Of a DNA stretch of 64,000 nucleotides, positions 2 through 60,565 are shown piece by piece. The stretch lies in the NCBI RefSeq assembly GCF_023093535.1, contig NZ_CP095757.1, positions 3,100,001-3,164,000 of the forward strand. The letters are read 5' to 3'. A model generated the notes under the pieces. That model was not told the origin of the DNA and made no database searches. It was given only the letters and a program-made list of their open reading frames with translations. Source of the stretch: Halovivax limisalsi. Its GTDB lineage: Archaea > Halobacteriota > Halobacteria > Halobacteriales > Natrialbaceae. Every line of letters begins with the position of its first letter. Within the stretch, counting starts at the first letter, position 1. Both the position numbers and the translations under genes were made by a program.

Positions 2-616
2 CTCCGGTCGATCAACCGGATGAACGATCTCGTCGACACCGCCCGCGTCGACGGCGACCTGCTCTTCGACGGCAAGAACGTCTACGACGACGACGTCGAT
101 CCCGTCGCGCTCCGCCGGAAGATCGGCATGGTGTTCCAGTCGCCGAACCCGTTCCCCAAATCGATCCGCGACAACGTCGCCTACGGCCTCAAAGTCCAGG
201 GCGACGATCAGAACGTCGACCAGAAGGTCGAGACCGCGCTCAGGAACGCGGCCCTCTGGGACGAGGTGAACCACCAGCTCGACGAGAGCGGCCTCGAGCT
301 CTCCGGCGGCCAACAACAGCGCCTCTGTATCGCCCGCGCGATCGCGCCCGACCCGGAGGTCATCCTCATGGACGAGCCCGCGAGCGCGCTCGACCCCGTC
401 GCCACCTCGAAGATCGAGGACCTGATCGACGATCTGGCCGAAGAGTACACGGTCGTCATCGTCACCCACAACATGCAACAGGCGGCCCGCATCTCCGACA
501 AGACGGCGGTCTTCCTCACCGGCGGCGAACTCGTCGAGTTCGACGACACAAACAAGATCTTCGAGAATCCCGATCACCAGCGCGTCGAGGACTACATCAC
601 CGGGAAGTTCGGTTGA
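2..616 (+). CDS. pstB: PstB, phosphate ABC transporter ATPase (5' end outside window)
   Basis: ATP-hydrolysing subunit of the Pst high-affinity phosphate importer on the cytoplasmic face of the membrane. The frame is open to the window edge, so the N-terminus with the Walker A loop is missing; about 204 residues are visible. Visible motifs are the Q-loop context ([11 protein letters not shown]), the ABC signature [14 protein letters not shown], Walker B VILMDEP followed by the D-loop SALDP, and the H-loop VTHN. The NPFPKSI stretch is typical of PstB. The gene is followed by a hairpin array and then phoU, the usual neighbour of pst genes. It is probably the last or next-to-last gene of a pstSCAB operon starting left of the window and induced by phosphate limitation (family knowledge). 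Confidence 0.95.
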
Positions 617-1012
617 GGAACTTTTGCGCTGTCGTTCGGAAGACGCTTCGCGTCTTCCGTGATGACGAGAGGCGCGAAGCGCCTCTCGAACCACGCTCTG
701 ACGGAACGGCGCCAGCACGGCTGGCGCACGTTCCGTCGACGCTCGGCAAAATCTTCAAAAGAGCCTCCGGCTCTTTTGGACGGCGAGGGAACGCAGTTCC
801 CTCGAGCAGTCGGCGCGAAGCGCCGACGACCTCCGCGGGAGCTTCGCTCCCGCTTAGCTTCCATGAAAAGCACTCCTCGCTCCCCTACAGCGCCGCTTCG
901 CGGCGCTTTGGCTCGCGGCTTCGCCGCTCGCTTTCCCGCGGCGCGCAGCGCCGCGCTTTCCGGGTCGGTCGTCGGCCCGCTCGCTCACTTCGTTCGCTCG
1001 CGGTGAACGACT
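617..1012 (+). repeat. Array of about eleven short hairpins after pstB (element copy A)
   Basis: Starts one base after the pstB stop. Perfect or near-perfect stem-loops of 8-10 bp with three-base loops (TTC, GAA, TCC, GCA) follow each other: 638-658, 667-687, 701-736 (nested), 756-778, 784-804, 809-827, 835-853, 889-907, about 915-926 (weaker) and 937-955, plus an imperfect one near 976-1003. Between them lie four short blocks also found after gdhB at 60119-60247: GAACTTTTGCGCTG (618-631), CTCGGCAAAA (742-751), ATGAAAAGCACTCCTC (863-878) and GGTCGTCGGCCCGCTCGCTC (967-986). No coding potential is credible here. It could be a 3'-UTR or termination element, or a palindromic mobile repeat. Confidence 0.85.
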
Positions 1013-1293
1013 CAGGCGCGGAGCCCCGTCCAGGCCGCTGCAACTCGTTACAACCGCATCAAGCCTTTCCCGCCGGGTCTGGCGACGGCATCCGCACCAA
1101 GGGCAGCTGTCACAACGACGAGAACAGCGTTCCGAAGACCCAGATCCAGCCGTTACCAGCGTCGGTCGGCATCGGCAGTTCACGACCCGAGCTCCAGAAC
1201 CGATTCCCGTCGAACCGCACGCGGACCATCGAGAGGCGCCCCGGAACGACCCGAGACATAAGCTACATACCCGTTCGACGCGGATTCGCGAGT
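1013..1293. other. Non-coding stretch and phoU promoter region
   Basis: No gene is seen. The frame of phoU runs open through this stretch, but its translation is arginine-rich and unlike PhoU, so it is not coding. An AT-richer segment just upstream of phoU, around 1256-1272, is the only promoter-like sequence. Confidence 0.5.
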
Positions 1294-2688: not shown

Positions 2689-3876
2689 ATGAGCGGCGAG
2701 GGAAGCACGATCGGCGGCGGCGTGGGAAACGAGGCGAACGGCGATCTAAGTACCGTCAGCGGCGGCGAAGACAATCAGGCCGACGGACAGGCGAGCACCG
2801 TCAGCGGCGGCGAGCGGAACCTCACCGGGGACGACTTCGGCACGGCCAGCGGCGGTCACGACAACTCGGTCTTCGGTCGGTACAGCGTCGTCGGCGGGGG
2901 GCGAAACAATCGGACGACGGGGACCGCGAGCACCATCGCTGGCGGCGGAACGGTCGAAGGCATCGACGGCGGTGGCGGCAATCTGGCGGACGGCGAACTG
3001 AGTTTCATCGGCGGCGGCGCGTGGAACACCGCCAGAGGACAGTACGCGACGATCGGCGGTGGTGAAGACAACCGGACCGAAGCGGAGTACGCGACCGTCG
3101 GCGGCGGGCTGGAGAACGAAGCCACCGGGATTCGATCGACGGTCGGTGCGGGCTGGGGAAACGAAGCCACCGGCCAGGCGGCAACAGTGGCCGGCGGTGC
3201 GGGGAACGAAGCGAGCGGCGTCGACGCGACCGTCGGCGGCGGCGTCGGCAACGCGGCGAGTGCCCGACGGGCGACGGTCGGCGGTGGCGGCGCGACGGGC
3301 GGGCAGGGGAATACGGCCAGCGGTGCCCACGCGACAGTCGGCGGCGGTCGGAACAACACGGCGAGCGGTGATCGGGCGACCGTTCCCGGTGGATTCTCGA
3401 ACGAAGCGGCCGGAGAACACTCGTTCGCGGCCGGTCGGGGCGCCAACGCAACGCACGACGGTGCGGTCGTGTTCGGGGACGCCACGACCACCGACATCTC
3501 CTCGACCGGCCCCGACGAAGCGCGGTTCCAGATGCCCGTTCACGCACCGGCGTTCAACACCGAGAGCACCAGCGCGGCGAAGACGAACGTCGAACCGGTC
3601 GACCCGCAGGCCACGCTCCAGGGCGTCGAGTCGCTGTCGATCACCACCTGGGAGTTCCGCGAGAACGGGAGCGGTCGACACATGGGGCCGATGGCCGAAG
3701 AGTTCGCGGACACGTTCGGCCTCGGCGAGGACGGAACCGCCATCGCATCGGTCGATTCCGACGGCGTCGCGTTCGCCGCGATCCAGGGACTGGCGGAGTC
3801 CCTGGGGGAGAAAGCCGAACGCATCACCGCGCTGGAGGAACGACTCGCGACGCTGGAGTCGCGGGTGGACGAGTGA
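2689..3876 (+). CDS. YadA-head-like repeat protein with C-terminal peptidase S74 chaperone domain
   Basis: 395 residues. Residues 1 to about 255 are roughly 15 copies of a glycine-rich repeat, consensus A-T-V-G-G-G-x-x-N-x-A-x-G, typical of the left-handed beta-roll of trimeric adhesin heads. After a linker comes a peptidase S74 (intramolecular chaperone) domain: KTNVEPVDP, TTWEFRENG, RHMGPMAEEFADTFGLG, ASVDSDGVAFAAIQGL and a final coiled coil (EKAERITALEERLATLE). In phage tail spikes this domain trimerises the protein and cuts itself off with a Ser-Lys pair; here Ser293 and Lys298 keep the family spacing (S-T-S-A-A-K). The start has an SD (GGAGG, 2678-2682) six bases before ATG. No signal peptide or membrane anchor is visible, so the N-terminus may be lost, or the protein may be a virus-derived fibre. 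Confidence 0.85.
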   Translation: MSGEGSTIGGGVGNEANGDLSTVSGGEDNQADGQASTVSGGERNLTGDDFGTASGGHDNSVFGRYSVVGGGRNNRTTGTASTIAGGGTVEGIDGGGGNLADGELSFIGGGAWNTARGQYATIGGGEDNRTEAEYATVGGGLENEATGIRSTVGAGWGNEATGQAATVAGGAGNEASGVDATVGGGVGNAASARRATVGGGGATGGQGNTASGAHATVGGGRNNTASGDRATVPGGFSNEAAGEHSFAAGRGANATHDGAVVFGDATTTDISSTGPDEARFQMPVHAPAFNTESTSAAKTNVEPVDPQATLQGVESLSITTWEFRENGSGRHMGPMAEEFADTFGLGEDGTAIASVDSDGVAFAAIQGLAESLGEKAERITALEERLATLESRVDE

Positions 3877-58818: not shown

Positions 58819-60114
58819 ATGAGTGCAAATGTTGCCGAGGAGAGCGAGGCCGGAACCGAGGAGAGCGAGCCGGAGACGGCGTTAGAAACCGCAAAACGCC
58901 AGCTCGCTCGCGCGACCGCGCACGTCGATATCGATCCGAACGTCGTCGAACGGCTCGAGCGGCCGCGCAAGATCCACGAAGTGTCACTGCCGTTGCGCCG
59001 CGACGACGGCACCGTCGAGGTCCTCACCGGCTTCCGCGCTCAGCACGACAGCGTCCGCGGCCCGTACAAGGGCGGGCTGCGCTACCATCCGGAGGTCACC
59101 CGGGACGAGTGCGCCGGGCTCGCGATGTGGATGACCTGGAAGTGCGCCGTGATGGACCTGCCGTTCGGCGGGGCCAAAGGCGGCATCGTCGTCGATCCGA
59201 AGCAGCTCAGCCACAAGGAGAAAGAGCGCCTCACCCGTCGATTCACCCAGGATATCCGCTCGGCGATCGGGCCGACGAAGGACATCCCGGCGCCAGACAT
59301 GGGAACCGATCCGCAGACGATGGCCTGGCTCATGGACGCCTACAGCATGCAGCAGGACGAGACCATCCCCGGCGTCGTCACCGGGAAACCGCCGGAGGTC
59401 GGCGGAAGCTACGGCCGCGAGGAGGCGCCCGGTCGCAGCGTCGCCATCATCACCCGCGAAGCCTGCGACTACTACGATTACGACCTCGCCGAGACGAGCG
59501 TCGCCGTCCAGGGCTTCGGTAGCGTCGGCGCCAACGCCGCCCGCCTGCTCCACGAGTGGGACGCCAACATCGTCGCCGTCAGCGACGTCAACGGCGCCCG
59601 CTACGACGCCGACGGTATCGACGTCGACCAGATCCCCTCCCACGACGAGGAACCCGAGGCCGTCACCGCCGCGACCGGCGTCGGCGAGCAACTCACGAAC
59701 GAGGCCCTCCTCGAACTCGACGTCGACGTCCTCATCCCCGCCGCCATCGGGAACGTCCTCACCGAGGAGAACGCGAACGACGTCAGCGCCGACATGATCG
59801 TCGAGGGCGCCAACGGTCCGACCACCTTCGCCGCCGACGCCATCTTCGCCGAGCGCGACATCCCGGTCATCCCCGACATCCTCGCCAACGCCGGCGGCGT
59901 CACGGTCAGCTACTTCGAGTGGCTCCAGGACATCAACCGCCGCGCCTGGTCGCTCGAACGCGTCAACGAGGAACTCGAAGTCGAGATGCTCTCCGCGTGG
60001 GCCGACGTCAGGGACGAGGTCGAAAGCCAGGACCTCACCTGGCGCGACGCCGCCTACGTCGTCGCCCTCAAGCGCATCGCCGCCGCCCACGAGTTCCGCG
60101 GCGTGTGGCCCTAG
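58819..60114 (+). CDS. gdhB: Glutamate dehydrogenase GdhB
   Basis: 431 residues. Interconverts glutamate and 2-oxoglutarate plus ammonia. Substrate-binding [20 protein letters not shown] and catalytic Lys in [19 protein letters not shown](P)-binding [16 protein letters not shown] and [22 protein letters not shown]. Hexameric family; cofactor preference not certain. A copy of the hairpin module starts four bases after the stop codon. Confidence 0.95.
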
Positions 60115-60118
60115 AACC

Positions 60119-60247
60119 GAACTTTTGCGCTGCGGGCCGGCGAAGCCGGCCCTCGGCAAAACTTCGATGAAAAGCACTCCTCCCCACCTCCGGTGGGGTC
60201 GTCGGCCCGCTCGCTCGGCCACGGCCTCGCTCGCGGTATGTGAGCCG
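60119..60247 (+). repeat. Compact hairpin module after gdhB (element copy B)
   Basis: Same four blocks in the same order and orientation as the pstB-phoU array: GAACTTTTGCGCTG (60119-60132), CTCGGCAAAA (60152-60161), GATGAAAAGCACTCCTC (60166-60182) and GGTCGTCGGCCCGCTCGCTC (60197-60216), then GCTCGCGGT. Only two hairpins sit between them: GGGCCGGC-GAA-GCCGGCCC (60134-60152) and CCCCACC-TCC-GGTGGGG (60182-60198), again with three-base loops. It begins four bases after the gdhB stop. Confidence 0.85.
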
Positions 60248-60565
60248 TGAACAAGCCAACCTTTCCCCGGGTCGTGACATCGGCGCAGAGCGCCGAGTCA
60301 CTCCCGGCCGTGGGTGGTTCGTCAGGATCATTGCCGCCGAACGATGCCAATCAGACGAACCCGAGGAGGCTGCGGTGTGGCCAGTTGGGTACCACTCGAT
60401 CTCCGCAGGGCGGACTCTCCCAAAACGAGGCGAGGAGACACGGACAGCTGGATCGGAGCATGGGTACAGTCCGATTCACTCCTGATGTATGTTCGGAATG
60501 ACAGTGCATTTAAACCAACGTAAATTCCGGAACTGTTATTAACTACTAATCAAGTATTTATCATT
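60248..60565. other. Intergenic region with promoter of next small gene
   Basis: No gene seen. A short hairpin CGGCGC-AGA-GCGCCG lies near 60286. The last 60 bases are AT-rich, with TTTAAACC (60509-60516) as a possible TATA for the gene at 60566. Confidence 0.4.

Follow-up and report, generated by a model that had tools for sequence, protein, structure and literature searches.

The question raised by this locus is whether the sequence behind gdhB of Halovivax limisalsi belongs to a family of modular elements placed at the 3′ ends of genes. In the window, by which we mean the whole 64,000-nt stretch of DNA that was analysed, the original prediction had described the region after gdhB as a second copy of an array located between pstB and phoU. 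This copy is real, as both sites carry the same blocks in the same order and on the same strand, starting a few nt from the stop codon. The blocks of the gdhB copy are GAACTTTTGCGCTG from 60119, CTCGGCAAAA ending at 60161, ATGAAAAGCACTCCTC at 60167–60182 and TCGTCGGCCCGCTCGCTC at 60199–60216, and those of the pstB array are GAACTTTTGCGCTG from 618, CTCGGCAAAAT ending at 752, ATGAAAAGCACTCCTC at 863–878 and TCGTCGGCCCGCTCGCTC at 969–986. With up to three mismatches allowed, the window contains exactly two matches to the ATGAAAAGC block, where 0.09 were expected by chance, and none of 100 shuffled sequences reached two matches.

The extent of the gdhB copy required correction. It had been described as a 130-base region with two hairpins; we found three hairpins within 60119–60247 alone (60134–60152, 60182–60198, and 60207–60236), and the element runs on to 60307, about 60 nt further. 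Its features are as follows.

60112–60114 (+): gdhB TAG stop codon (CDS 58819–60114; Pfam ELFV_dehydrog, 6.7e-72)
60118–60307 (+): whole gdhB copy, hairpins SL1 to SL4 (R1 model, described below, E=1.6e-17)
60118–60128 (+): SL1 5′ arm, CGAACTTTTGC, supported by covariation
60134–60152 (+): SL1 variable tip hairpin within the arm stem, GGGCCGGC-GAA-GCCGGCCC
60156–60166 (+): SL1 3′ arm, GCAAAACTTCG, pairing with 60118–60128 with one C·C mismatch, supported by covariation
60167–60182 (+): fixed linker block ATGAAAAGCACTCCTC, from block matches
60182–60198 (+): SL2 hairpin, CCCCACC-TCC-GGTGGGG
60199–60216 (+): fixed block TCGTCGGCCCGCTCGCTC, recurring in other copies
60207–60236 (+): SL3, CCGCTCGC...GCTCGCGG, with variable tip
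60260–60270 (+): conserved block CCTTTCCCCGG, outside the region originally described and recurring in many other copies
60267–60307 (+): SL4, the fourth hairpin, CCGGGTC...CTCCCGG with variable tip, recurring in many other copies

Among 115 copies located shortly after stop codons, 59 contain a CCTTTCCCC-type block. For the pstB array, our count of eleven hairpins agreed with the original one, and the following features were assigned.

614–616 (+): pstB TGA stop codon
617–1003 (+): long eleven-hairpin copy between pstB and phoU
617–627 (+): 5′ arm GGAACTTTTGC, complementary to GCAAAA (746–751) plus CTTCC (858–862)
632–700 (+): two-hairpin module in SL1, TCGTTCG-hairpin-TGATGACGA-hairpin-CGAACCACGCTCTG
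753–857 (+): four-hairpin module M, 105 nt, between AAAAT and CTTC
863–878 (+): fixed linker block ATGAAAAGCACTCCTC
889–957 (+): three hairpins at the SL2 position
969–1003 (+): fixed block TCGTCGGCCCGCTCGCTC and SL3
1063–1077 (+): CCTTTCCC block, a weak remnant

Module M splits the complement of the 5′ arm by separating CTTCC (858–862) from GCAAAAT (746–752), and GGAAC (617–621) still pairs with CTTCC across it. It is the same kind of insert as that found at gyrB in genome G016, with shorter forms at gyrB and rpl10e in other genomes, and the two-hairpin module of 632–700 recurs in a copy behind an acyl-CoA dehydrogenase gene (L009). Further downstream, the window also encodes a 395-aa ORF (2689–3876) that contains numerous short repeats rich in Gly and Asn and, at its C-terminus, a Peptidase_S74 chaperone-of-endosialidase domain (Pfam 3.6e-06); this is unusual for an archaeon and recalls viral tail or trimeric adhesin proteins.

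The genome-wide block search that had been proposed as a check yielded 14 matches to GATGAAAAGCACTCCT at zero or one mismatch, none at two and a chance-like number at three. Most of them were preceded by GAACTTTTGCGCTG or a variant and lay after a stop codon, and the host Halovivax genome contains about 14 strong copies of the family. A covariance model of the first hairpin and linker (R1, 75 positions) was positive in 40 of 61 relatives and in 228 of 392 haloarchaeal genomes, covering 64 of 86 genera; in a phylum-wide sample of 295 genomes, all 25 positives were haloarchaea of the same order. A strict linker pattern searched over 84,980 genomes matched 66 stretches, 65 of them in Natrialbaceae (Halovivax, Natrinema, Haloterrigena, Natrialba, Natronorubrum, and others), and the exact pattern was not found in viral contigs. 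Rfam scans of 34 loci assigned no family at or above its gathering threshold to the element: the sole match was an SRP RNA gene upstream of one copy, and Termite-flg scored 34.4 bits, under its cut-off of 40. The earlier remark that no haloarchaeal repeat of this form is known by name agrees with our searches of Rfam and the open-access literature, which gave no name; subscription papers or early haloarchaeal genome papers may hold a name.

We then analysed the position of 155 non-identical copies taken from the best-scoring matches, using gene calls from a simple script based on amino-acid composition. As many as 102 of the 155 start 0–6 nt after a stop codon in the sense direction, a count in which copies are not independent, since related genomes share sites; for five other haloarchaeal families, the corresponding figure was 19 of 30 copies. 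The 112 gene-end copies fall behind only 31 upstream-gene families, 22 of which recur, some being named from sequence and genus knowledge only. The recurring genes include those for DNA gyrase B, an EngB-type GTPase, ribosomal protein L10e, TbsP, the thermosome and acyl-CoA dehydrogenase, together with those for an Lrp-like protein, PAN, branched-chain aminotransferase, TFS, diphosphomevalonate decarboxylase, the large subunit of DNA polymerase D (DP2), TrkH, PurF, digeranylgeranylglycerophospholipid reductase, PstB, aIF1A and IF-2, among others. A stop codon is not strictly needed, because in two genomes, including the host genome, the element starts a few nt behind the SRP RNA gene, a site filled in 2 of 29 readable loci. 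We had also expected copies away from stop codons to lie behind tRNA or other RNA genes, which proved true only of SRP RNA, in these two genomes: ARAGORN detected no tRNA at the remaining copies away from stops, and two loci (L114 and L137) show a tRNA-like 3′ end upstream of the element.

Two further ideas were rejected. TTTT is found in nearly all of 147 aligned arms, and targeting of ordinary T-run terminators was dismissed because ordinary gene ends show no more than a mild excess of T4 directly behind the stop codon. A conserved ORF starting from the linker ATG was dismissed because this ATG is lost in many copies (e.g. GATCAAAAG, GATTAAAAG). Convergent neighbouring genes were not enriched among the copies (40 of 108 versus a baseline of 44%).

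Several less common arrangements were also observed. Some copies lie in promoter regions: in four genomes the element is located about 40 nt upstream of the start codon of a ribosomal protein S6e-like gene, facing away from it, and two copies upstream of a NAC-like gene are arranged similarly. At five places in three genomes (G061, G073, and G082), two copies face each other a few hundred nt apart (e.g. G073:C2, 569010 + and 569311 −), as if each of two convergent genes carried its own copy. In four copies (L112, L139, and those at gyrB in G001 and G004, L277 and L278) the first arm is doubled (CGACCTTCTGCCCTG CAAACTTTTGCGCTG), moving the pairing arm to 15–19 nt behind the stop. The host genome contains an inverted pair of weaker relatives (CGAACTTTTT...AAAAACTTCGATGAAAAAGGCC; 510207 + and 511227 −) around a 154-aa gene, an arrangement that looks like an element-flanked cassette; the two copies begin close to the 5′ ends of genes that point outward, one aspartokinase-like and the other acetyltransferase-like as judged from sequence only. 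It also carries an inverted pair of a second subfamily (121120 − and 120268 +) behind IscU-like and PCNA-like genes, with a 136-aa gene in between, whose identical cores suggest gene conversion between neighbouring copies.

To follow the history of single sites, the gyrB-gyrA spacer was located from the protein, independently of the element, in 70 Natrialbaceae genomes. The site was filled in 20 of them, with spacers of 166–419 nt, and the empty spacers were mostly 12–27 nt (range 1–102). In filled spacers only a few nt separate the gyrB stop codon from the element, except that copies with a doubled first arm begin further away. The element is therefore present or absent within genera at a site inside an operon; for example, G029 is filled and G187 is empty, with flanking genes that are 97% identical. 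Filled and empty gyrB alleles differ by replacement of the spacer, without target duplication. The rpl10e site was filled in 14 of 36 Natrialbaceae genomes by our count and in one genome of another family; at all filled sites the copies again start near the stop codon, with differing arm types. Decayed arms also occur among the gyrB and rpl10e comparisons (G081, G062, and G025).

Near-identical orthologous alleles bear out the proposal of a modular element with fixed blocks between which hairpins are inserted, expanding or shrinking it. The gyrB-gyrA spacers of G405 and G016, which belong to different genera, are 99.0% identical, compared with 89.4% for gyrB and 90.4% for gyrA, and compared with G405, G016 carries one additional four-hairpin module of 105 nt, cleanly inserted at AAAA|CTTTGATG. 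The identity extends into the first part of gyrA and then drops, as would be expected for a short recombination tract. Within one genus, the alleles of G311 and G372 are distinguished by a loop flipped from TTC to GAA and by a clean 53-nt insertion of two hairpins. Across the family, the median similarity of copies at different genes was 0.683 within one genome and 0.678 between different genera. Since copies within a genome are no more alike than copies between genera, these values point to old copies and no recent burst.

The arms of SL1 covary. Double changes were found at 7 of 17 pairs in the first 11 copies, and in 98 copies there were 187 double-changed cells, with no shuffle reaching the observed covariation score; the best pair shows all four Watson-Crick types (GC 55, AU 16, CG 12, UA 12) and one G-U. 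Compensatory changes through G-U intermediates, as expected of a structured RNA, were not seen, as the outer helix of 147 copies contains 1596 Watson-Crick, 7 G-U and 4 A-C cells. As a control, the haloarchaeal SRP RNA was scored on the pairs of its own consensus structure and gave 2445 Watson-Crick, 286 G-U and 17 A-C cells; its structure was obtained from RNAalifold, which allows G-U, so that the control is somewhat favourable, and the difference is still large. G-U was scored on known paired columns, a version based on flanked mismatches being uninformative on the SRP control. The hairpin loops are strand-symmetric, with TTC 28 and GAA 18, TCC 10 and GGA 9, and GTA 9 and TAC 7. Because the arms covary almost without G-U and loops occur about as often as their complements, the palindromes look as if they are kept up at the DNA level or regenerated by hairpin-templated copying, and not as if folded RNA were the object of selection. 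A C·C mismatch in the SL1 arms persists in most copies, which argues against copying alone.

The prediction of a 3′-UTR element family is thus only partly borne out. Many copies do lie directly 3′ of genes in the sense direction, as the 102 copies within 6 nt of a stop codon indicate. On the other hand, about 20 of the 155 copies are MITE-like and away from genes, some are at promoters, two follow SRP RNA, those at gyrB-gyrA are operon-internal, and the near-absence of G-U wobble argues against a folded 3′-UTR RNA.

The MITE-like minority was recognised by inspection from its short inverted ends away from stop codons (left A[CG]TACAG..TGC, right TGAGTGCACACT..CTGTA[CG]T). These copies hold SL1 to SL3 and not SL4, and three of them in Natrinema versiforme have an identical core. 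Terminal inverted repeats were not seen in the copies behind stop codons. The core may have been captured by a MITE, or a MITE may be the ancestor of the gene-end class. In Natrinema limicola, tandem duplicates of the element about 90 nt apart were seen (L224, 2609–2776; L230, 1309–1479), each broken by an N in the assembly.

Our best explanation, which we consider about as likely to be right as wrong, is a DNA-level haloarchaeal interspersed repeat of the BOX/REP kind, built of fixed blocks and interchangeable hairpins, tethered to the ends of core genes and exchanged by recombination. Hairpin tips and modules would turn over through hairpin-templated replication or repair, and homologous recombination may carry established copies from one species to another, with the conserved 3′ coding end as its anchor. 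Exchange is seen only at gyrB; such anchoring, if general, would explain both the bias towards core genes and the contact with the stop codon. The fixed blocks may be kept since a copy is useful at a gene end, perhaps as a partial 3′-end signal or barrier, combining T4 near the stop with a palindromic obstacle, and not as an absolute terminator. It is plausible that the element has a function at gene ends, given that its fixed blocks are retained from genus to genus in spite of spacers saturated with change. This retention is circular for copies collected with a model of those blocks and largely free of this problem only in the gyrB and rpl10e comparisons. Complete termination is unlikely because copies lie in gyrB-gyrA and pstB-phoU, where a strong terminator would be harmful. 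The element is also dispensable, as most orthologous gene ends (rpl10e, gyrB, SRP RNA) do without it. Against this explanation, recombination in coding sequence accounts for re-used sites and not for first placements, and some copies, a minority, occur at promoters or as MITEs. A bolder version, which we consider possible but less likely than not, is a class-wide element functionally tethered to gene ends, in which a putative factor reads the blocks, hairpin-templated processes rewrite the palindromes and stop-anchored recombination spreads the alleles.

A selfish MITE-like repeat that favours insertion sites immediately behind stop codons or the 3′ ends of RNAs, without host benefit and with its position reflecting target choice or tolerance, is possible but doubtful. 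The copies with A[CG]TACAG ends and the shared core in Natrinema versiforme fit this idea, as do presence and absence within genera, the Natrinema limicola duplicates and the nested module insertions; however, copies near stop codons lack MITE ends and were not recently amplified, the same 31 gene families are reused, the gyrB case is explained by allele exchange and not by new insertion, and no transposase is linked. A precision of 0–6 nt at unrelated C-termini would also be hard to achieve for a DNA-sequence-specific transposase. A strictly sense orientation at the same close distance from the stop codon would also suit a folded RNA at the mRNA 3′ end, stopping exonucleases or affecting the ribosome as it terminates, and such an element has a precedent in E. 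coli, where REPs within 15 nt of stop codons have been reported to stall ribosomes (PMC5082802). Predicted folding is indeed strong (z −3.35 and −7.61), but the arms covary in all four Watson-Crick forms with almost no G-U, the loops are strand-symmetric, and the SRP RNA that two copies follow is untranslated, which makes this reading improbable. We consider a bidirectional intrinsic terminator very unlikely: one strand carries T4 in the 5′ arm, the other carries it in the 3′ arm and linker, and Haloferax terminators are T stretches (PMC7237163), but there is no enrichment of convergent neighbours, the copies at gyrB-gyrA lie within an operon, T tracts need no exact arm complementarity, and several genomes carry two facing copies instead of a single shared one. 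Chance similarity of G+C-rich intergenic palindromes has only base composition in its favour and is refuted by the shuffles, the gap in the genome-wide matches, the covariation and the restriction to haloarchaea, leaving it practically no probability.

BOX, REP, MIRU and the haloarchaeal MITE, PATE and SMR repeats are the closest known systems, and none of them fits the element on all of the defining features tested. The BOX element of Streptococcus pneumoniae, boxA-boxB(n)-boxC, has some copies at 3′ ends of genes, and our element resembles it in architecture, being interspersed and composite, with hairpins, fixed ends and a variable number of internal modules, and variable in size at one site (PMC3049150). 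Fixed end blocks with variable internal modules were indeed found at different sites. Unlike BOX, which has terminal inverted repeats and target duplications, stop-codon copies show neither, and the element has several module types at fixed insertion points and a position tied to the stop codon. REPs are units of about 20–40 nt, unlike the element, which measures about 190 to over 400 nt, is modular and occurs in archaea. With enterobacterial REP/BIME it shares the character of a multi-copy extragenic palindromic repeat, often in 3′ regions (PMC5082802). Like MIRU, it is located at gene boundaries with little disturbance of the neighbouring gene (PMC12548453), whereas MIRUs carry an ORF coupled to the gene and our element has no conserved ORF. 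Haloarchaeal MITEs, PATEs and the small mobile repeats of Haloquadratum are transposase-free repeats (PMC3119063); the minority class with short inverted ends is of this kind, in contrast to the majority class, which lacks terminal repeats and is located at the stop codons of core genes. A T run close behind the stop codon is shared with haloarchaeal T-stretch terminators (PMC7237163), but there are only four Ts, followed by long conserved blocks and modules that would be superfluous for a simple terminator, and some copies are operon-internal. Bacteria are known to carry modular interspersed repeats, but the open-access literature we searched held no description of one whose position is fixed to a few nt from a stop codon, at one recurring set of core genes, throughout an archaeal class. 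The filled and empty gyrB-gyrA pairs in close relatives make the choice between a passenger and a working gene-end element directly testable, and the allele pairs at this site allow loop flips, module insertion and cross-genus transfer to be traced at the single-nucleotide level.
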